The notes below the pieces were generated by a model, which saw nothing but the letters and a program-made list of their open reading frames with translations, was not told where the DNA came from and did not search any database. Source: Liolophura sinensis (Eukaryota > Mollusca > Polyplacophora > Chitonida > Chitonidae). From it: a stretch of 64,000 nt of DNA. Positions within the stretch are counted from its first letter, which is position 1; each line of letters starts with the position of its first letter. The DNA is taken from assembly GCF_032854445.1 (NCBI RefSeq), contig NC_088302.1, positions 2,846,023-2,910,022 on the forward strand, written 5' to 3'. Both the position numbers and the translations under genes were made by a program. Of this stretch, positions 3,774-39,720 are shown piece after piece.

Positions 3774-4852
<1,079 letters not shown>

Positions 4853-10327: not shown

Positions 10328-10599
10328 CTGTCCAAATTTACTTCACCTGACGTCTTTCATCTGTATGTGTAACCTGCTGTAAAATGAAACTGTGTCAATG
10401 TGTATTTGATCTCCCAGATAATTTCTAGTGCTTGAATACATAGGCTTATATAACCGAAGTGGTAATGGGGGACCCCCCGCTCAGAGTTATCTCCCCTGTG
10501 GCGCCACTGTTCCATCAGCGATACACATATCCACCGGCATGGCCGAGTGTATCTGTATGTCGGCGACCGTCTGGTGTTAAATGTAACTCTTCTACAGCA

Positions 10600-12006
10600 A
10601 TGCCGCAATATTGTTGCGTACCTGGGTGTAAGGGGAACACTGGAGGACATCGATTCCCTCGAGACGCTAACATTAGATTAAAATGGAGGGTTGCTATCAA
10701 GCGAATCGACCCGCAAACCCGACAACTATGGGACCCTAAAAAGCTGGACGTGGTCTGCAGAGCGCACTTCAGAGAAGAAGATTATCGGCCAGTTTCGTTA
10801 CTAGGTAGGATTGCTATTTCGTAGAGAGATCTGCATTTTAAAATGGAAATCAGTATTGTTTATTCCCCCTACCGTCAGCTATACCTGGCGGCAGTGTAGA
10901 CTTGAATGCAGGCCTACCAATTAAAACTGATAGTTATAAATTATTTGTAAATATGGCTTACTAATAATAGAGGTATCAGGTCAAATTGTAATATTAAATA
11001 GATCTAGCAGAATTTTTTCAACGTGAAATATTCGAAGTTTTAAATATTTCCGGCACTAGTCTTAATGGCTTGCTGTATTAAAATAAATTTAAAAAAAATC
11101 TTCTTTGCACTCATTAGAACTAACACGTGAAAACTGTCCATTCAAATTTCAGGTGAAAGGAAAAGACTTCGAGCAAATGCTGTTCCATCAGTTTTTACTT
11201 TCTGGCCATCTGACACCAAGCCCATGAGGAAACTGGAGAGGACGGGCAAAAGTCCAGATGTCCAGATGCAAATGATTGTGGAAGACGTGCCCGATGTGGC
11301 GTGTTTTGAATCCGTTGGAAATGAGGAATTGCCAGCCATTGAGACCATCTCAACCTCATCCACAACAGATCAGGGGGTGCAGTGCTCTTTGCCCAGCAAT
11401 CAAAATAGATTTTCAGTCGATAACTTTGAAAACAATCCCAAAGCAATGTCTTACTACACTGGTTTTTATGATTATCAATATTTCATGTTTTTCTTCAATA
11501 TTCTTGGCCCGGCAGCTTTTGATTTAAACTACAAATGTTCGCTATTGTCTCCACATGATCAATTGTTTTTAACTTTAATGAAGCTGAGACAGTCAAAAGA
11601 TGATGTGGAGCTGTCACTTTTGTTCAACGTTAGTGAAACTACTGTTTCCAGAATTGTTTGTACATGGATCAATTTCATTTATTTCCAACTCCAAGAGATA
11701 GACATCTGGCCATCCAAATCTGTTGTGGAGGCTACCATGCCAGTTGGTTTCAGGAAAATGTACCCTTCAACGCGTGTTATTCTTGATGCAACGGAGGTAC
11801 CAATTCAAAAACCTGCGAATGTGAACGTTTCTGTATTTCTGTGGCCTGGGATCATCCACAGACAACCTCTTCCTGCCCTCCTTCAGAGGAAGGTTTTGTG
11901 CTTTAACAGGAGAACCTGGATCAGAAAACAAATACTGCTTGGCCACAAAGTAACATGTAAAAACATGCACCACAACAACATGATAGTATTTAGTCCATGT
12001 TCATAA
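10600..12006 (+). pseudogene. THAP-domain DDE transposase, C-terminally truncated
   Basis: Exon 1 (10600-10804) starts MPQYCCVPGCKGN and holds a complete THAP zinc finger: C2CH ligands CxxxxC near the start and CRAH later, plus HRFPRD and the conserved Trp. Its donor GTAGGA joins in phase with exon 2 (from 11153, acceptor caaatttcag), whose first residues carry the AVPSVF motif that normally closes THAP domains. Exon 2 then has an acidic linker, a helix-turn-helix region (LSPHDQLFLTLMKLRQ) and the start of a DDE_Tnp_4 domain with the first catalytic Asp in ILDATEVPIQKP. Just after this (about 11815-11826) the transposase resemblance stops; the frame to 12006 is antisense to the opposite gene. 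The second and third catalytic acids are lost, so the protein cannot be an active transposase. Confidence 0.88.
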
Positions 12007-23140: not shown

Positions 23141-24469
23141 AGACATACATATATTACATTTTATTTGGTTGTGTTTCCTTTGCCTTGTCTTCATTCAAAT
23201 CTACATGTTGGACAACAGATTACTGGATCCATTCTGCTGTTTTTCATCTCAATGTGACATTACACAGTTGCTATGGTTACCTCTACGCTATCCTGACAGA
23301 AATTACTGATGCATGCAAATGACTGGAACAAAGCTACGTCCTGAACCATAGTGCTCTGTTTGGCTAACAGGTTAAAAGTTCACCATAATTCTCATCTGAA
23401 ATTGTACAGCATGGTTTTTTTGAAGACATACTTTAGTGATGTTAGTAGAAATCGCATTTAGTCAACAGAAATAATGACCCTTGAAGCTGTGACTGGAGTT
23501 TCATGTGGAACTTGAGAGACTGTCGTAGAATTAATGCATGTCCAGTTTAAAATCTCCTTACCAGCATTCTTCTGCACCTTTCAATTTTGCATAATTCTTA
23601 GATACAAAGGTACACTGCACAGATTAAACCTCTGACACTCCTCTGTCAACCACTGCACTTGAACCGCCGAGAAGGATCAATTTCATATGGTACTCGATCT
23701 AAGCAGGGGCGTTCTTGTAATCTGTGTTTGTAAATTTGATTGACGCTGTGGCTTCAAACCTTGTAATGAATCCTTACTTTGTACTGCTCTTGTCCAAGTG
23801 TTGCGGTGCCAGTCATGATGTAGTTCAACATGTTCCAGTGTTTGCATTTCTCAGTTTAGACATATGTTTACACTGAGTGATGTACATGTTATAGAAAAAC
23901 CAGAAGGATAATAGAATGTGCCATTATGCATGACAAAAACTGCTATTAAATGTGTAATTTTGTGTATGAAGCATTTGAAAAACAAGAAATGGAGCGTATA
24001 TCCCATCAGCTGCTTTTAGTGAAAGGTTTTTGTCACCTTCTGCAAAGGGCAGTCACTTGGTACTTTTGTGTCTGGACTTTGTCCAAGACTGGTCAGTACA
24101 TGTATGCAATGTATCAACACCCACTGGCCTGGTGATAATTAAGTAGCTGGCCTTTATAAAGCTGCCAGAAAATGTCAAAGCTTTTAAGGTGTTAATAAAA
24201 ATGCAATGTATGCAATGTAGCATCTCAGATATTTACACCTACTGGTTGTTGCCAGCATAACTAAGCTATCAATCCATATTTCCTGTAGTATAGTGCATAA
24301 TGTGAGAAATTGTAAGGCCATCGATCCAGGAGAAGGCTAGGTATGTTCCCTCTGTCAAACAATATGCCTCTAACCGGTCTGTACACAAAGGTACATTGTA
24401 TACAGTGGTACCAGGTGCAGGGCTACTCCTGATCTATCCTTACCATGTCCTAAAACTTCCTAACAATGC
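23141..24469. other. No gene seen
   Basis: Unique AT-rich DNA. The only sizeable frame (23950-24135) has no recognisable family or splice context. Confidence 0.55.
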
Positions 24470-27400
24470 AGGCTCTTGCTCTCATCTGTCCTTACAATGC
24501 AAGCTCTCATCTGTCCTAAGTGCTGTCATCTGTCCTTACAATTCTCTCATCAGTCCTAACAATGCAGGCTCTCATCTGTCCTAAGAGTGCTCTCATCCGT
24601 CCTTACAATTCTCTCATCAGTCCTAACAATGCAGACTCTCATCCGTCATTGCTCTCATCCATCCTGACAATGCAGGCTCTCATCTGTCCTAAGAGTGCTC
24701 TCATCCGTCCTGACAATGCTCTCATCAGCCCTAACAATGCAGGCTCTCATCTGTTCTAAGAGTGTTCTCATCCGTCCTTACAATGCTCTCATCAGTCCTA
24801 ACAATGCAGGCTCTCATCTATCCTAAGAGTGCTCTCATCTGTCCTTACAATTCTCTCATCAGTCCTAACAACGCAGACTCTCATCCGTCAATGCTCTCAT
24901 CAGTCTTAACAATACAGGCTCAACCGTGCTAACTATATTCTCATCTGTTCTAGCAACGCTCTCATCCATCCTTATAATGTAGGCTGTCATCCGTCCGAAG
25001 AATGCTCTCATCCGTCTTTACAATGCTCTCTTCAGTCCGAACAATACAGGCTCAACCTTCCTAATCTCTCATCCGTTCTAGCAACGCTCTCATCGGTACC
25101 TATAATGCAAGCTCTCATCTGTACTACAATGCTTTCATTTGTCCAAACAATGCTCTCCTCCGTCCTTCCAATGCAGTCTCTCATCTGTCCTATCAATACT
25201 TTTATCTGTCCTTGCAATGCATACTCTCATCTGTCCTAACAATGCTCTCATCTGTCCTTCCAATGCAGACTCTCATCTGTCCTAACAATACTCTCATCTG
25301 TCCTTACAATGCAGACTCTCATCTGTCCTGACAATACTCTCATCTGTCCTTACAATGCAGGCTCTCATCTGTCCTAACAATGCTCTCATCTGTCCTTCCA
25401 ATGCAGACTCTCATCTGTCCTAACAATGCTCTCATCTGTCCTTACAATGCAGACTCTCTCATCTGTCCTAACAATACTCTCATCTGTCCTTACAATGCAG
25501 ACTCTCATCTGTCCTAACAATACTCTCATCTGTCCTTACAATGCAGACTCTCTCATCTGTCCTATCAATACTCTCATCTGTCCTTACAATGCAGGCTCTC
25601 ACCTGTCCTAACAATGCTCTCATCTGTCCTTCCAATGCAGACTCTCATCTGTCCTAACAATACTCTCATCTGTCCTTACAATGCAGACTCTCATCTGTCC
25701 TAACAATACTCTCATCTGTCCTTCCAATGCAGGCTCTCATCTGGCCTAACAATACTCTCATCTGTCCTTACAATGCAGGCTCTCATCTGTCCTAACAATG
25801 CTCTCATCTGTCCTTCCAATGCAGACTCTCATCTGTCCTAAATATGCTCTCATCTGTCCTTACAATGCAGACTCTCATCTGTCCTAACAATGCTCTCATC
25901 TGTCCTTACAATGCAGACTCTCGTCTGTCCTTACAATGCAGACTCTCATCTGTCCTAACAATGCTCTCATCTGTCCTTACAATGCAGACTCTCATCTGTC
26001 CTAACAATGCTCTCATCTGTCCTTACAATGCAGACTCTCATCTGTCCTAACAATGCTCTCATCTGTCCTTACAATGCAGACTCTCATCTGTCCTAACAAT
26101 GCTGTCATCTGTCCTTACAATGCAGGCTCTCATCTGTCCTAAATATGCTCTCATCTGTCCGTCCAATGCAGGCTCTCATCCATCCTAACAATGCTCTCAT
26201 CTGTCCTTCCAATGCAGGCTCTCATCTGTCCTAACAATACTCTGATCTGTCCTTACAATGCATACTCTCATCTGTCCTAACAATACTCTCATCTGTCCTT
26301 ACAATGCAGACTCTCTCATCTGTCCTAACAATGCTCTCATCTGTCCTTCCAATGCAGACTCTCATCTGTCCTAACAATGCTCTCATCTCTCCTTACAATG
26401 CAGACTCTCTCATCTGTCCTAACAATACTCTCATCTGTCCTTACAATGCAGACTCTCATCTGTCCTAACAATACTCTCATCTGTCCTTACAATGCAGACT
26501 CTCATCTGTCCTAACAATACTCTCATCTGTCCTTACAATGCAGACTCTCATCTGTCCTAAATATGCTCTCATCTGTCCTTACAATGCAGACTCTCATCTG
26601 TCCTAACAATGCTCTCATCTGTCCTTACAATGCAGACTCTCGTCTGTCCTTACAATGCAGACTCTCATCTGTCCTAACAATGCTCTCATCTGTCCTTACA
26701 ATGCAGACTCTCATCTGTCCTAACAATGCTCTCATCTGTCCTTCCAATGCAGACTCTCATCTGTCCTAACAATGCTCTCATCTGTCCTTACAATGCAGAC
26801 TCTCATCTGTCCTAACAATGCTGTCATCTGTCCTTACAATGCAGGCTCTCATCTGTCCTAAATATGCTCTCATCTGTCCGTCCAATGCAGGCTCTCATCC
26901 ATCCTAACAATGCTCTCATCTGTCCTTCCAATGCAGGCTCTCATCTGTCCTAACAATACTCTGATCTGTCCTTACAATGCATACTCTCATCTGTCCTAAC
27001 AATACTCTCATCTGTCCTTACAATGCAGACTCTCTCATCTGTCCTAACAATGCTCTCATCTGTCCTTACAATGCAGACTCTCATCTGTCCTAACAATGCT
27101 CTCATCTCTCCTTACAATGCAGACTCTCTCATCTGTCCTAACAATACTCTCATCTGTCCTTACAATGCAGACTCTCATCTGTCCTAACAATACTCTCATC
27201 TGTCCTTACAATGCAGACTCTCATCTGGCCTAACAATACTCTCATCTGTCCTTACAATGCTCTCATCTGTCCTTACAATGCAGACTCTCATCTGTCCTAA
27301 CAATACTCTCATCTGTCCTAACAATGCTCTCATCTGTCCTTACAATGCAGACTCTCATCTGTCCTAACAATACTCTCATCTGTCCTTACAATGCAGACTC

Positions 27401-27695
27401 TCATCTGTCCTAAATATGCTCTCATCTGTCCTTACAATGCAGACTCTCTCATCTGTCCTAAATATGCTCTCATCTGTCCTTACAATGCAGACTCTCATCT
27501 GTCCTAAATATGCTCTCATCTGTCCTTACAATGCAGACTCTCATCTGTCCTAACAATACTCTGATCTGTCCTTACAATGCATACTCTCATCTGTCCTAAA
27601 TATGCTCTCATCTGTCCTTACAATGCAGGCTCTCATCTGTCCTAACAATGCTCTCATCTGTCCTTCCAATGCAGGCTCTCATCTGTCCTAACATT
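24470..27695. repeat. 3.2-kb compound ~46-bp minisatellite
   Basis: The basic unit pairs tctcatctgtcctaacaatgc (21) with a 25-base partner, tctcatctgtccttacaatg + cagac; it is degenerate at the left end and regular from about 25200. A 719-bp higher-order repeat is visible: rare variants such as tctcgtctg recur at 25919 and 26638, and catcc-atcc variants recur at the same shift. Confidence 0.95.
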
Positions 27696-28230
27696 CTCAT
27701 CCTCCCTAACTATGCTGTCATCCTCCAATATCATGTTCTCATTCGCTCTAACCATCCTCTTATCCTCCCTTACCATGCTGTCATCCACTCTAACCATGTT
27801 TTCATCCTCTCAACCATGGTCTCATCCATTCTAACCATGTTTTCATCCACCCTAACCATGCTCTGATCCACCGTAAACATATTCTCATCCACCTAACCAT
27901 GTTCTCATCCACCTAACCATGTTCTCATCCACCTAACCATGTTCTCATCCACCTAACCATGTTCTCATCCACCCTAACCATGCTCTCATCCACCTAACCA
28001 TGTTCTCATCCACCTAACCATGTTCTCATCCACCTAACCATGTTCTCATCCACCCTAACCATGCTCTCATCCTCCCAACCATGTTCTCATTCTCCCAACC
28101 ATGTTCTCATCCCCCAGCCATGTTCTCATCCACCCTAACCATGTTCTCATCCACCCTGACCATGTTCTCATCCACACTAACCATGTTCTCATCCAATCTA
28201 AGTATGCTCTCTTCAGCTGTAACCATTCTC
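27696..28230. repeat. ~20-23-bp tandem repeat
   Basis: Units such as atgttctcatccacctaacc (20) and atgttctcatccaccctaac c. It appears to be a diverged continuation of the preceding array, which shares 'ctctcatcc'. Confidence 0.9.
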
Positions 28231-32700: not shown

Positions 32701-33412
32701 TCAGCTGATGTTCCCATCTGTGAGAAGTTGTTACCTGTGATGAAGTTCCCATCTGTAAGGGATTGTTACCTGTGATGAAGTTCCCATCTGTAAGGGATTG
32801 TTACCTGTAGTGAAGTTCCCATCTGTAAGGGATTGTTACCTGTGATGAAGTTCCCATCTGTAAGGGATTGTTATCTGTGATGAAGTTCCCATCTGTAAGG
32901 GATTGTTACCTGTGGTGAAGTTCCCATCTGTAAGGGATTGTTACCTGTGATGAAGTTCCCATCTGTAAGAGATTATTTCCTGTGATGAAGTTCCCATCTG
33001 TAAGGGATTGTTACCTGTAGTGAAGTTCCCATCCTTTAAGAGATTGTTACCTGTGATGAAGTTCCCATCTGTAAGGGATTGTTACCTGTGATGAAGTTCC
33101 CATCTGTAAGGGATTGTTACCTGTGGTGAAGTTCCCATCTGTAAGGGATTGTTACCTGTGATGAAGTTCCCATCTGTAAGGGATTGTTACCTGTAGTGAA
33201 GTTCCCATCCTTTAAGAGATTGTTACCTGTGATGAAGTTCCCATCTGTAAAGGATTATTACCTGTGATGAAGTTCCCATCTGTAAGGGATTGTTACCTGT
33301 AGTGAAGTTCCCATCCTTTAAGAGATTGTTACCTGTGATGAAGTTCCCATCTGTAAAGGATTATTACCTGTGATGAAGTTCCCATCTGTAAGGGATTGTT
33401 ATGTGTGATGAA
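32695..33412. repeat. 36-bp tandem repeat, about 20 copies
   Basis: The unit is gttacctgtgatgaagttcc plus catctgtaagggattg, with variants tagtgaag, tggtgaag and catcctttaagag. The variant order partly repeats, suggesting block duplications. Confidence 0.95.
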
Positions 33413-33689
33413 GGATCAACTCTACTTACATTTTGAAACAGTAAATAAATCAAATCATCATCATTTGTTGATTACTTTGAGTTTCCTTCATTCAAGACTG
33501 ATGCTAGGGGAGGCTGGACAGTTCTCGGCCTGAGACTGGGACTCATCCTATCTGCTCAATATATAGATAACTAATTGAGCCCCTCCTTATCAATATATTG
33601 AACAAGAATCATCACAATGTCTGACGAATCTTCTTGAAGTACCTCGGGCTAAGAACTTTTCAGCTTCCCTAGTACCTGCCTGTCAATGT

Positions 33690-34091
33690 ACATGTATGTT
33701 TCAGCGCCCACGTCCATGTACGTTTCAGTGCCCACGTCCATGTACGTTTCAGTGCCTACGTCCATGTATGTTTCAGTGCCCATGTCCATGTATGTTTCAG
33801 TGCCCACGTCCATGTACGTTTCAGCGCCCACGTCCATGTATGTTTCAGTGCCCATGTCCATGTATGTTTCAGCGCCCACGTGCATGTACGTTTCAGCGCC
33901 CACGTGCATGTACGTTTCAGTGCCCATGTCCATGTATGTTTCAGTGCCCATGTCCATGTACATGTATGTTTCAGTGCCCACGTCCATGTACGTTTCAGTG
34001 CCCACGTCCATGTACGTTTCAGTGCCCACGTCCATGTACGCTTCAGTGCCCACGTCCATGTACGTTTCAGTGCCCACGTCCATGTACATGC
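33690..34091. repeat. 24-bp tandem repeat, about 17 copies, upstream of the Mab-21 gene
   Basis: The unit is cgtccatgtacgtttcagtg ccca with C/T variants. The period is a multiple of three, so long frames appear in several frames on both strands; these are artefacts. The array ends about 70 bp before the first coding exon of the next gene. Confidence 0.95.
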
Positions 34092-34160: not shown

Positions 34161-37100
34161 ATGAAGCTGTTACCATTATTCATCTGCTTCTTCCTGGTAC
34201 TGTCCTACCTCCCTGAGGGAGAACTGAAGAGATCAAAGGGGAAGGGCAAACAGGTGAAAAACCCGGGTAAGTCAAACCACGAATCTGTCAGATTTGGGGG
34301 TGTGGATGAAGAAATTATTCATATATCTGGATGGAATTGTGGATAGATGAGTGGGTGGGTTGATGGTAAGGTGGATGGTTGGGTTGGTGGAGGGGTGGAT
34401 GGAAAGGTGGATGGGTGGGGTTTTTGTTGTGATGGAGAGGTGGATGGGTGAGTTGGTGGGTGGATGAATGTGTGGATAATGGGTGGGTGGAATAAGTAGG
34501 AGTGGGTGGATATTGTGAAAATAGTGCTGTAAGACAAAAACATGTGAAACGAGTGCTTTTAATTGCAATAAATGACCTAAAAGCAGTGTTTTATAGTATT
34601 TAATTGCCTCAGGAAAAGATGTTTTAGAGTGAAAGGGGAAGCCTCCATGGCTCATTTGGTTAGCATGCTAGCACAGCGTAATGACCCAAGAGCCTCTCAC
34701 CAATGGGGTTGCTGTGAGTTCGTCCCATTCATGCTGGCATCCTCTCCAGCTGTAAATGGGAAAGTCTGTCAGCAACCTGCGGATTGTCCTGGCTTTCCCC
34801 CGGACTCTGCACCACCATTATGCCGGCTGCCGTTGTATAAGTGAAATATTCTTGAGTACAGCATAAAACACCAATGAAATAAATAAATAAATAAATAACT
34901 AAATTTGGAGTGAAATTTTAGGTCATTTAATATAAATCTTGAAGTGCTTAATGGTGAAGTGGTTGATGGATAAGTGATTGATGGTGAAGTGGTTGATGCT
35001 TAAGTGGTTGATGGTGAAGTGGTTGATGGATAAGTGATTGATGGTGAAGTGATTGATGGTGAAGTGGTTGATGGATAAGTGGTTGATGGATAAGTGATTG
35101 ATGGTGAAGTGGTTGATGGTGAAGTGGTTGATGGATAAGTGGTTGATAGATAAGTGGTTTATGCTTAAGTGATTGATGGTGAAGTGGTTGATGGTGAAGT
35201 GGTTGATGGATAAGTGATTGATGGTGAAGTGGTTGATGCTTAAGTGGTTGATGGTGAAGTGGTTGATGGATAAGTGATTGATGGGGAAGTGGTTGATGCT
35301 TAAGTGGTTGATGGTGAAGTGGTTGATGGATAAGTGATTGATGGGGAAGTGGTTGATGCTTAAGTGGTTGATGGTGAAGTGGTTGATGGATAAGTGATTG
35401 ATGGTGAAGTGGTTGATGGTGAAGTGGTTGATGGATAAGTGGTTGATAGATAAGTGGTTTATGCTTAAGTGGTTGATGGTGAAGTGGTTGATGGATAGTG
35501 TGATTGATGGTTAAGTGGTTGATAGATAAGTGGTTAATGGTTAAGTGGTTAATGGTTGCACCTTTTTAATGGACTGGGTTTGAATTTGAATTTGGAATTT
35601 AAATTTGGAATTTTTTATAATTTCCTGTGCTTGGGGTCATGGTCAGCATTTGCTTACTGCTCTAGGCTCTGGGGATTTGAAAGGAGACAAACGAACCAGA
35701 GAAATCATCACTGATGCAGATTTTAATCACAGCTCATCTAAGAAAAACAAAAGGAAAAAGGATAAAATGGACAAAGAGGTAGAAGACTCAAATGGAGGAC
35801 ATTCCAACTCTGGAGGGAGTAAGAAATTACGGGGGTCAAAGAGACAGAAGAAAAAGGAGAAGAAGAAACACAAGTCCAGGGAGAAAGGTTCTATTTTTAT
35901 TCAACACAATGGTTTGGACACTGCTTATATTGCATTTTTATGTGGACATAGAGCTTTCTTTCTTTGAAAATTTGTGTTTGGGATGTTGTTTGGGAAAGGT
36001 TGCCTCACAGTTATTTAATGGAGAGTTGTTGTATATGAAGAAGGTTGATACAATAATCAAATGTCTGACCAATGGCCATAGCCAAATTCAAATGGAATGT
36101 CTGCCCACTGGCCATAGCCAAATTCAAATGGAATGTCTGCCCAATGGCCATAGTCAAATTCAAATGGAATGTCTGCCCACTGGCCATAGCCAAATTCAAA
36201 TGGAATGTCTGCCCGATGGCCATAGCCAAATTCAAATGGAATGTCTGCCCAGTGGCCATAGCCAAATTCAAATGGAATGTCTGCCCGATGGCCATAGCCA
36301 AATTCAAATGGAATGTCTGCCCAGTGGCCATAGCCAAATTCAAATGGAATGTCTGCCTAGTGGCCATAGCCAAATTCAAATGGAATGAATCTCCTTCATT
36401 TACATACTGCTCCCAGACATTGTGTCCATGGCAAAACGAGGATCAACTTTCTCTTACTCATCCTTTTTATTTTCAGGTTTTGTTCTTCCAGAAGGAAGTG
36501 TTGCAGCTAGTTCTTAATGTTTATTTTTACTTGTTGATTAAAACCATTGATTCAGAACTTCCTATTTGCTGTTTTAAACAACCTGTTAGGAAACCGATTT
36601 CACAGAATTATGGTCTGAAGTAGTTTTAATTTGCAGAACAAATATGATTTTTACTTCAGATATCAATATTAATTTGGGACACAAGAATCAAAATTAGCTG
36701 AGTTTCCATTTAATGTACATGTAGATCATTAGTACACATGTTACGTTAAATACATGTATGTGTTAAGGCTTTTTGGAGTCTCTCTGACCAGTTCTGGTAC
36801 CAATATTTATTTATTTATTTATTTGGTTAGTGTTTTACGCCGTACTCAAAAATATTTCACTTATACAACAGCAGTCATCATTGTGGTGGGTGGAAACTGG
36901 GCAGAAACTCACGACCATCTGCAGATTGCTGCCAGACTTCAATTCCCATACCCCACTGTAGAGGAAGCCAGCATGAACATGAACTTTCAGCGGTCCCATT
37001 GATAAGAGACCATTAGTACCATTATACAAAAAATGTAAATTATAGATAGTTATAGTTTGATGTGTTGATTAGATTTCTCCAGTTTTATTTTCAGCTGAAA

Positions 37101-38302
37101 GGAACAGTGGAGATATGCATGCGACCAATCAGCGAAAACAATCCAAAGTGAACGAAGGTCGAGCAGAGGAGAGACACCCATCACAAGGAGATGGCGTAAG
37201 GTCTATAGTGACCTTAGGCCTAAAAGCACTTTCTTATTGGCTGTCAGGGAAAGAAACCGAGGGTACGTATCGTAGTGACAAACTACGTTGCAGTGACAAA
37301 CTGAATAGACAACTAGTGAAATTCTACGAGAAAGAGGTCCGTGTTCCGTCCAAGGATGTGCAAACAAGCCGCCGCATCGTTGACCAGTTCATGAAGCAGA
37401 TATGGACACAAATCATTTCCAACATGGAGGGCTTGACATTCACACGTTACACTTTGGTGGGCAGTATGTCTGAAGGTCTGGCTGCTGTGAAGATTGCTGA
37501 TTTTGATTTTCATCTTCCTCTCAAGATAAGCTCAGGAAGGCTGACTGCTCATACCATTCCCGACATGCCTGGCTACAAACTCATCTCCTGTGATGAGCCG
37601 TCAGTCTGTGATAAATATGGCGAGGTCAAGGACGGTTACAATTTCCTTAGTCCATCTCGTATCATCAGTAAACTACAAAGTATTGTGCAGAAAGCAGTGG
37701 TTAATGGTAAAGTTGCGATGATAGGCGACTGTCACCAGTACCGGCCTGGATATAAAGGGCCAACAGTCAGCGTGGAGTTGGACTGCCAGCCAGAAACTTA
37801 CCGTATTGAATTGGTCCCGCTCATCACAACAGTCGATGGACAGCAGTTTGTCGCTAAGAAAGCTGACTTAGGATTGGCTAAGAATTATCCCCTGTCCTGG
37901 CGACAGTCTTTCCAGGAGCAAGAAAGAGATCTCATCGCCAGTAAATCAGATAACTTGAGCTTGCTGCGCCTAGCAAAAGCTCTGTTTCGTCACAAAGAAA
38001 TGCCCTTGAACCATCTTTCGTCGTATCAGCTGAAGAACACTTACTGTCATCTTGACCGTAGTGGCTATGTATGGGCGTCCAAGCCGCTGTGTGACCAGCT
38101 ACTTGATTTCACAGATTACCTGCACAAATTTGCAGTCGAACAAAATCTTCCATGCTGCTTTCTCAACAGTGTCAATCTGTTTTCCTCGTGCACCTCGGAC
38201 ACAATCATCAATATGGAAGGTAGACTCAAGAGAATATTGGAGAATTTTGATGATACTGTGAAGAGATGGATAAATGTTCCAGAGCTTAAGGATGAGTTGT
38301 GA
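34161..38302 (+). CDS. Secretory-pathway Mab-21/cGAS-like nucleotidyltransferase with C-terminal KDEL (3 exons, 511 aa)
   Basis: Exons: 34161-34266 (donor GTAAGT), 35666-35887 (acceptor cttactgctctag, weak donor GTTCTA) and 37095-38302 (acceptor tttattttcag, stop TGA). Every junction is phase 1. An acceptor ending at 34134 suggests an upstream 5' UTR exon. Residues 1-19 form a signal peptide (MKLLPLFICFFLVLSYLPEG). Residues 24-109 are a Lys-rich, low-complexity linker. A Mab-21 nucleotidyltransferase fold follows: GS at 232-233 (TLVGSMSEG), acidic pair D245/D247 (ADFDFHLPL), third acid E348 (RIELVPL), and the C-terminal helical half (HLSSYQLKNTYCH). All three metal-binding acids look intact, unlike in many Mab-21 proteins. 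The chain ends exactly in KDEL. N-x-S sites at N56 and N396 fit lumenal exposure. Relatives include cGAS-like receptors and ITPRIP; substrate unknown. The exon 2 donor is the weakest point. Confidence 0.85.
34335..34510. repeat. Low-complexity TGGA/GGTT-rich stretch in intron 1
   Basis: Imperfect repeats of ggtggatgggtggg type. Frames on the minus strand (Pro/His/Ile-rich) are artefacts. Confidence 0.8.
34642..34897 (+). mobile_element. Full-length tRNA-derived SINE in intron 1 of the Mab-21 gene
   Basis: Head gcctccatggctcatttggt with tRNA A-box features, B-box-like 'gctgtgagttcgtccc', body, and tail 'tattcttgagtacagcataa' plus (AAAT)n. A short shared flank (gagtgaaa) on both sides may be the target duplication. 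Confidence 0.9.
34945..35565. repeat. 15-bp tandem repeat in intron 1, about 40 copies
   Basis: Three alternating units (gatggtgaagtggtt, gatggataagtgatt, gatgcttaagtggtt) arranged in a recurring 60-75-bp order. It ends about 100 bp before exon 2. Confidence 0.93.
36068..36388. repeat. 36-bp tandem repeat in intron 2, about 9 copies
   Basis: The unit is ggccatagccaaattcaaat plus ggaatgtctgcccact. The period is divisible by three, giving long spurious frames on both strands. Confidence 0.95.
36808..37012 (-). mobile_element. Diverged SINE in intron 2 of the Mab-21 gene
   Basis: Minus-strand tail (ttagtgttttacgccgtact) and body (cattgtggtgggtggaaact), with a shortened middle and a partial head (gcggtcccattgataagaga). 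Confidence 0.85.
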
Positions 38303-38567: not shown

Positions 38568-39720
38568 GGCCAACTGTATACCATGTAGATTACTACTGAG
38601 TCAGCTGTGCACCATGTAGACTACTGCTGACCCAGCTGTGCACCATACAGACTACTGCTGACCCAGCTGTGCACCATACAGACTACTACTGAGTCAACTG
38701 TGCACCATACAGACTACTACTGAGTCAACTGTACACCATGTAGACTACTACAGAGTCAACTGTGCACCATACAAACTACCACTGAGTCAGCTGCGAACCA
38801 TCCAGACTACTACTGAGTCAACTGTGAACCATGTGGACTACTACTGAGTCAACTGTGAACCATGTAGACTACTACTGAGCCAACTGTGCACCATGTAGAC
38901 AACTACTGAGTTAACTGTACACCATGTAGACTCCTACAGAGTCAACTGTGCACCATACAAACTACCACTGAGTCAGCTGCGAACCATCCAGACTACTACT
39001 GAGTCAACTGTGAACTATGTGGACTACTACTGAGTCAACTGTTTACCATGTAGACTACTACTGAGTCAGCTGTGCACCATGTAGACAACTACTGAGTTAA
39101 CTGTGCACCATGCAGACTACTACTTAGCCAACTGTGCACCATGTAGACTACATTGAGTCAGCTGTGCACCATGCAGACTACTACTGAGTCAGCCGTATAC
39201 CATTCAGACTAATACTGTTCCAACAGTGCACCATTGAGACTACATTGAGTCAGCTGTGCACCATGTAGACTACTGCTGACCCTGCTGTGCACCATGTAGA
39301 CCACTGCTGACCCAGCTGTGCACCATGTAGACCACTGCTGACCCTGCTGTGCACCATGTAGACCACTGCTGACCCTGCTGTGCACCATGTAGATTACTGC
39401 TGACCCTGCTGTGCACCATGTAGATTACTGCTGATCCTGCTGTGCACCATGTAGACTACTGCTGACCCTGCTGTGCACCATGTAGACTACTGCTGACCCT
39501 GCTGTGCACCATGTAGACTACTGCTGACCCTGCTGTGCACCATGTAGACTACTGCTGACCCAGCTGTGTGCCATGTAGACTACTGCTGACCCTGCTGTGC
39601 ACCATGTAGACTACTGCTGACCCAGCTGTGTGCCATGTAGACTACTGCTGACCCTGCTGTGCACCATGCAAGCTACTACTGAGTCAACTGTTCAATACAT
39701 TGACTACTGATGCACCATAT
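38568..39720. repeat. 31-bp tandem repeat, about 37 copies
   Basis: The unit is accatgtagactactgctga plus ccctgctgtgc. The left half uses the variant actgagtcaactg and the right half gctgaccctgctg, so the array has two homogenised domains. Confidence 0.95.

Follow-up and report, generated by a model that had tools for sequence, protein, structure and literature searches.

Does an enzyme of the Mab-21 family work inside the endoplasmic reticulum (ER)? This question is raised by a plus-strand gene of the chiton Liolophura sinensis, located in a stretch of 64,000 nucleotides (the window, C8:2846023-2910022) of the 609-Mb, 632-contig assembly that served as the searched genome. Work on the cGAS/Mab-21 family has dealt with enzymes that sit in the cytosol or nucleus or that face the cytosol. 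The chiton chain opens with the signal-like MKLLPLFICFFLVLSYLPEG, carries a Mab-21 domain with the active-site residues in place and closes with an exact KDEL. From these features we read it, with fair confidence, as a soluble, ER-lumenal and probably active Mab-21 nucleotidyltransferase. The gene is modelled with three exons that encode 511 residues and a stop codon, and its parts are arranged as follows in window coordinates:

34161..34266, + strand: exon 1, with the start codon, the signal-like N-terminus (residues 1-20), the beginning of the Lys-rich linker and a phase 1 donor; single match in the genome
34161..34220, + strand: candidate signal peptide, for which a crude rule predicts cleavage after S15; best hydropathy windows of 1.66 (19 residues) and 2.58 (15 residues)
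35666..35887, + strand: exon 2, Lys-rich linker, with an uncertain 3' end (35887, or 35818 with a better-scoring donor)
37095..38302, + strand: exon 3, with the remainder of the linker, the Mab-21 nucleotidyltransferase and C-terminal domains, KDEL and stop
37460..37465, + strand: GS activation-loop motif, residues 232-233 (coordinates from the exon 3 frame)
37499..37507, + strand: first two catalytic acids, D245 and D247 (coordinates from the exon 3 frame)
37808..37810, + strand: third catalytic acid, E348 (coordinates from the exon 3 frame)
38288..38299, + strand: C-terminal KDEL, read in the exon 3 frame

The assignment to the Mab-21 family is given by exon 3, which matches both Mab-21 (PF03281; 38.2 bits, E 2e-9) and Mab-21_C (PF20266; 28.8 bits, E 1.4e-6) above the curated cut-off of 24.1 bits. 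The original prediction, made from the letters alone, had proposed a Mab-21 fold with a GS motif and the acids D245, D247 and E348. This is borne out by the alignment, in which G232-S233 and the three acids fall on the active site of the family. An AlphaFold2 model of the domain alone (37268-38299, single sequence) was not used, as it reached a mean predicted local distance difference test value (pLDDT) of 34 and a predicted template modelling score (pTM) of 0.21.

The protein had also been labelled 'cGAS-like'. This label is loose. A search of the PDB at E values up to 1 returned 10 sequences: six of MID51, two of MID49, the Mab-21 protein 7lt2 (which we take to be a Tribolium-type cGAS-like receptor, or cGLR) and 8gjy, a cGAS-like receptor. 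Neither cGAS nor MAB21L1 is represented among them. The basic linker of the chiton protein is reminiscent of cGAS, which has a basic N-terminal tail. As seen from Li et al. 2023 (PMC9980059), the protein further shares with cGAS and the cGLRs the Mab-21 fold, the G[S/G] motif and the [DE]h[DE]...[DE] acids. What it lacks is the strict motif that these authors use in their first pass for cGLRs, h[QT]GS-X8-20-[DE]h[DE]h-X50-90-h[DE]h: VGS replaces [QT]GS, and 100 residues instead of 50-90 separate the second from the third acid. A relaxed pattern of our own does match. The predicted secretory-pathway address is a further difference from cGAS and the cGLRs; the main text of Li et al. 2023 (PMC9980059) uses none of the terms 'signal peptide', 'endoplasmic' and 'secreted'.

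Can the signal-like start and the KDEL end be placed on one chain? The ATG at 34161 is preceded by an in-frame stop just before 34143. Scored with a generic matrix, the exon 1 donor CGG/GTAAGT (34267) is strong (6.54), and exon 3 begins at 37095 after TTATTTTCAG, a good acceptor. Both introns of the three-exon model are in phase 1. Exon 2 starts at 35666. Its 222-base length is less secure, since it implies the weak donor AAG/GTTCTA at 35888 (-3.67), while the in-phase donor GGA/GTAAGA at 35819 scores better (0.86) and its use would remove 23 residues from the Lys-rich linker; we are unsure which of the two 3' ends, 35887 or 35818, is used. Exon 1 could also be spliced straight to exon 3 without a change of phase. 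As 153 and 222 are both multiples of three, exon 2 preserves the frame with either end or when skipped, and the signal and the KDEL thus remain on one chain in the three splice forms considered. The three-exon plus-strand reading, the Lys-rich linker and the chain ending exactly in KDEL are likewise all present in the sequence. The Lys-rich composition runs on across all three exons. In a search that leaves simple repeats and highly frequent words out of account, the DNA of exon 1 and of exon 2 each matched the genome once, namely at the exon itself, and the idea that either is part of a repeat is therefore not supported.

Both introns contain repeated DNA. Inverted copies of one dispersed element, one per intron, lie at 34812-34897 and 36804-36889 (and at 34728-34762 and 36943-36977) and are 86% complementary across 86 bases; the element presumably resembles a molluscan short interspersed nuclear element. 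Five minisatellite arrays surround the gene and partly fill both introns (32706-33413, 33691-34087, 34940-35557, 36060-36387 and 38569-39691, with units of about 35, 24, 15/60, 36 and 31 bases, respectively).

The N-terminal hydrophobic run spans residues 3-17. Such a short hydrophobic core, here of 15 residues, is typical of signal peptides, and the cleavage after S15 is predicted by a crude rule. When this rule was combined with a phase 1 donor and applied to both strands of the window, it returned one forward case, exon 1, and no reverse case; the donor cut-off was exon 1's own score, chosen post hoc, so the count tells how rare the combination is but does not amount to a test. After residue 40 the best 19-residue window reaches 0.99. 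With no second hydrophobic span, the protein is predicted to be soluble after cleavage.

At the other end, the KDEL codons directly precede the stop codon (38300-38302). A C-terminal KDEL would arise by chance with a probability of about 2e-5 under assumed residue frequencies, and it is the sole [KRHD]DEL end among the 2227 open reading frames (ORFs) of at least 20 amino acids in the window. The same genome encodes a KDEL receptor. The DNA pattern for AEKDEL plus stop occurs at two places in the genome, of which one actually reads AEKDEF and the other ends an Hsp70 (PF00012, E 4.1e-93) that is taken to be BiP. The chiton protein has two features expected of a KDEL-retained soluble ER protein, a C-terminal K/HDEL and, by hydropathy, no further membrane span. 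The two N-x-S sites noted originally are present (N56 and N396); as evidence they were rejected, because two sequons in 511 residues are, by estimate, at chance level. Outside the signal there are 10 cysteines, and of the nine in the domain only one aligns with a cysteine of a paralogue that is not closely related. Such private cysteines would be compatible with disulfides and were retained as weak support.

How does the gene compare with its relatives? Exon 3 found itself and seven relatives in the genome, at 23-28% identity. Profile searches gave 17 matches for PF03281 and 28 for PF20266, this gene being within both, and a set of 28 paralogue loci was cut from the PF03281, PF20266 and exon 3 matches. 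A [KRHD]DEL end was found in these loci neither in the 1312 ORFs of at least 40 amino acids nor in the 39 ORFs matching a family profile, although some of the latter are internal exons and so do not include the C-terminus of their protein. Among the paralogues aligned, the third acid is replaced by His in L015 and L016 and by Gln in L001. Of the 12 aligned rows, L002 was omitted from the tree as a near-copy of L003; the tree of the other 11 does not place the gene, which sits on a long branch (2.03) at an open fork. Against viral contigs, the exon 3 protein showed no relative (one stretch matched a pattern, none was confirmed). Four of the paralogues (L004, L006, L007 and L008, C6:11.09-11.20 Mb) are near-identical Mab-21 genes that lie clustered together and whose active site looks complete. 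L004 and L007 are 93% identical, and the cluster looks like the product of recent expansion, with the more divergent copy L005 next to it.

From the features above we infer the transcript, signal cleavage, location, catalysis and substrate in the following way. The gene would be a single-copy, fast-diverged chiton Mab-21 nucleotidyltransferase. Its protein would be made by ER-bound ribosomes and lose its signal peptide, and retrieval by the KDEL receptor would keep it in the ER lumen. The intact GS loop and three acids would most likely bind lumenal ATP (or another imported nucleotide), and the nucleotide may be transferred to an ER client or to a ligand bound via the Lys-rich tail. Such a role would be nearer to that of the ER AMPylator FICD than to that of cGAS. 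FICD is an ER-lumenal AMPylating enzyme and shares with the proposed enzyme the transfer of nucleotides in the ER; it has the Fic fold, unrelated to Mab-21, and the comparison is by action only. A role in cyclic-dinucleotide synthesis appears less likely, since the binding domain of STING lies across the membrane from the ER lumen and thus from a lumenal product. ATP is the likeliest substrate, as the ER has been described to possess both an ATP/ADP exchanger and an AMPylator (PMC6113206, PMC4739761).

Several observations pull away from a lumenal, active enzyme, and three alternatives were weighed. The first shares the lumenal location, so that the alternatives overlap in part with the preferred reading: the protein may be an ER-lumenal pseudoenzyme, in which the fold binds a nucleotide or client without catalysis. 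We regard this as an appreciable, though minority, possibility. MAB21L1 is described as binding nucleotides with no detectable activity (PMC4897736), and a plausible fold is thus no proof of catalysis. The long spacing of 100 residues between the second and third acids points in the same direction. The retention of the GS motif and all three acids argues for an active enzyme instead, at least one of these residues being changed in L001, L015 and L016.

The main rival is a membrane-anchored, MID51- or ITPRIP-like protein, held by its uncleaved N-terminus in the membrane of the ER or the outer membrane of mitochondria, with a cytosol-facing Mab-21 domain and a coincidental KDEL. MID51 (MIEF1; PDB 4nxt and others) is a mitochondrial outer-membrane protein. 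It is the nearest solved structure (six of the ten PDB matches; best E 1.1e-9, 40.8 bits), aligned over most of the domain, and its order of N-terminal hydrophobic stretch, linker and domain is also that of the chiton protein. The residues past the hydrophobic core are basic (net +4 in residues 16-36, +16 in residues 37-170), and by the positive-inside rule a basic flank speaks for an anchored protein whose domain lies on the cytosolic side. The MID51-like_C model also matched, at 23 bits, below the cut-off of 27 that a MID49/MID51 protein would be expected to pass; this model was not reported in the nine paralogues scanned. On the other side, the 7lt2 chain, at 37.4 bits, comes close to the 40.8 bits of MID51. 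MID51 has lost the three acids, a loss that the aligned MID51 PDB rows show in part, whereas the chiton protein keeps them together with an intact GS. The chiton protein further differs from MID51 in its Lys-rich linker and in its short signal-like start in place of a full-length anchor: the hydrophobic run is short and begins at residue 3, and the 19-residue window is marginal. The KDEL would have to be a chance event. The ITPRIP family, which combines a Mab-21 domain with secretory-membrane targeting (PMC6550788), differs from the chiton protein in the latter's KDEL end and, by hydropathy only, its lack of a second hydrophobic span. Taken together, we consider such an anchored protein unlikely.

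Slightly less likely still is a signal-less cytosolic or nuclear protein, in which no splicing links exon 1 with exon 3 and translation starts at Met117 or in another exon: exon 3 alone is an open frame of 409 codons with Met117 seven residues past its start, the exon 2 donors are weak and several paralogues are single open frames without a hydrophobic start, but the exon 1 donor is strong, both introns are in phase 1, the acceptor at 37095 is good, the Lys-rich composition spans all three exons and the KDEL would again be due to chance.

Four further points belong on the same side as the alternatives. The Lys-rich linker resembles nuclear basic stretches. When 16 paralogue ORFs were read from their first Met, upstream exons not being sought, one had a comparable hydrophobic start: L024 (C12:851500-855500), a Mab-21_C ORF with the start MLVIILFCVF..., a window of 1.88 compared to 1.66 here and no KDEL. 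The cysteine pattern is non-specific, as the Cys-rich L013 and L014 share only 1 of 17 and 1 of 18, respectively, and L015 shares 2 of 7. Finally, the support for a lumenal enzyme is drawn from sequence. The lumenal reading is nevertheless preferred, because an exact KDEL together with a signal-like start is hard to obtain by chance, while the basic flank and the resemblance to MID51 are softer evidence. What had originally been observed is thus confirmed, and its interpretation as a lumenal enzyme is partly supported.

Elsewhere in the window, an ORF with a THAP domain and, after it, one with HTH_Tnp_4 (10444-12006) represent the remains of a DNA transposon. An ORF at 3880-4464 with a strong DUF4528 match (3.4e-42) is a conserved nearby gene of unknown function, and 24001-28000 has a strong GC skew (-0.458).

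In the titles and abstract openings of the open-licence PMC papers searched, no ER-lumenal Mab-21 enzyme was found described, and no such paper joins Mab-21 with KDEL and a signal peptide, or nucleotidyltransferase with KDEL and the endoplasmic reticulum lumen. Tentatively, the chiton protein might be the first Mab-21, indeed the first nucleotidyltransferase-fold, enzyme of the ER lumen, which either nucleotidylates secretory clients with lumenal ATP or produces a nucleotide signal upon encountering a secretory-pathway polyanion. STING-like exons are present in the same genome; several STING_LBD exon matches lie within about 60 kb at C12:21.31-21.37 Mb, possibly representing more than one STING gene. 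The reading is directly testable, as tissue RNA-seq data of Liolophura sinensis are public (PMC11068029). If the enzyme is lumenal, this fold would transfer nucleotides in the secretory pathway too, a compartment with few known enzymes of this activity, and the concrete question would become which nucleotide is transferred and to which target. A nucleotide signal triggered by a polyanion, if true, would mirror cGAS signalling on the lumenal side, and the chiton has STING as well.
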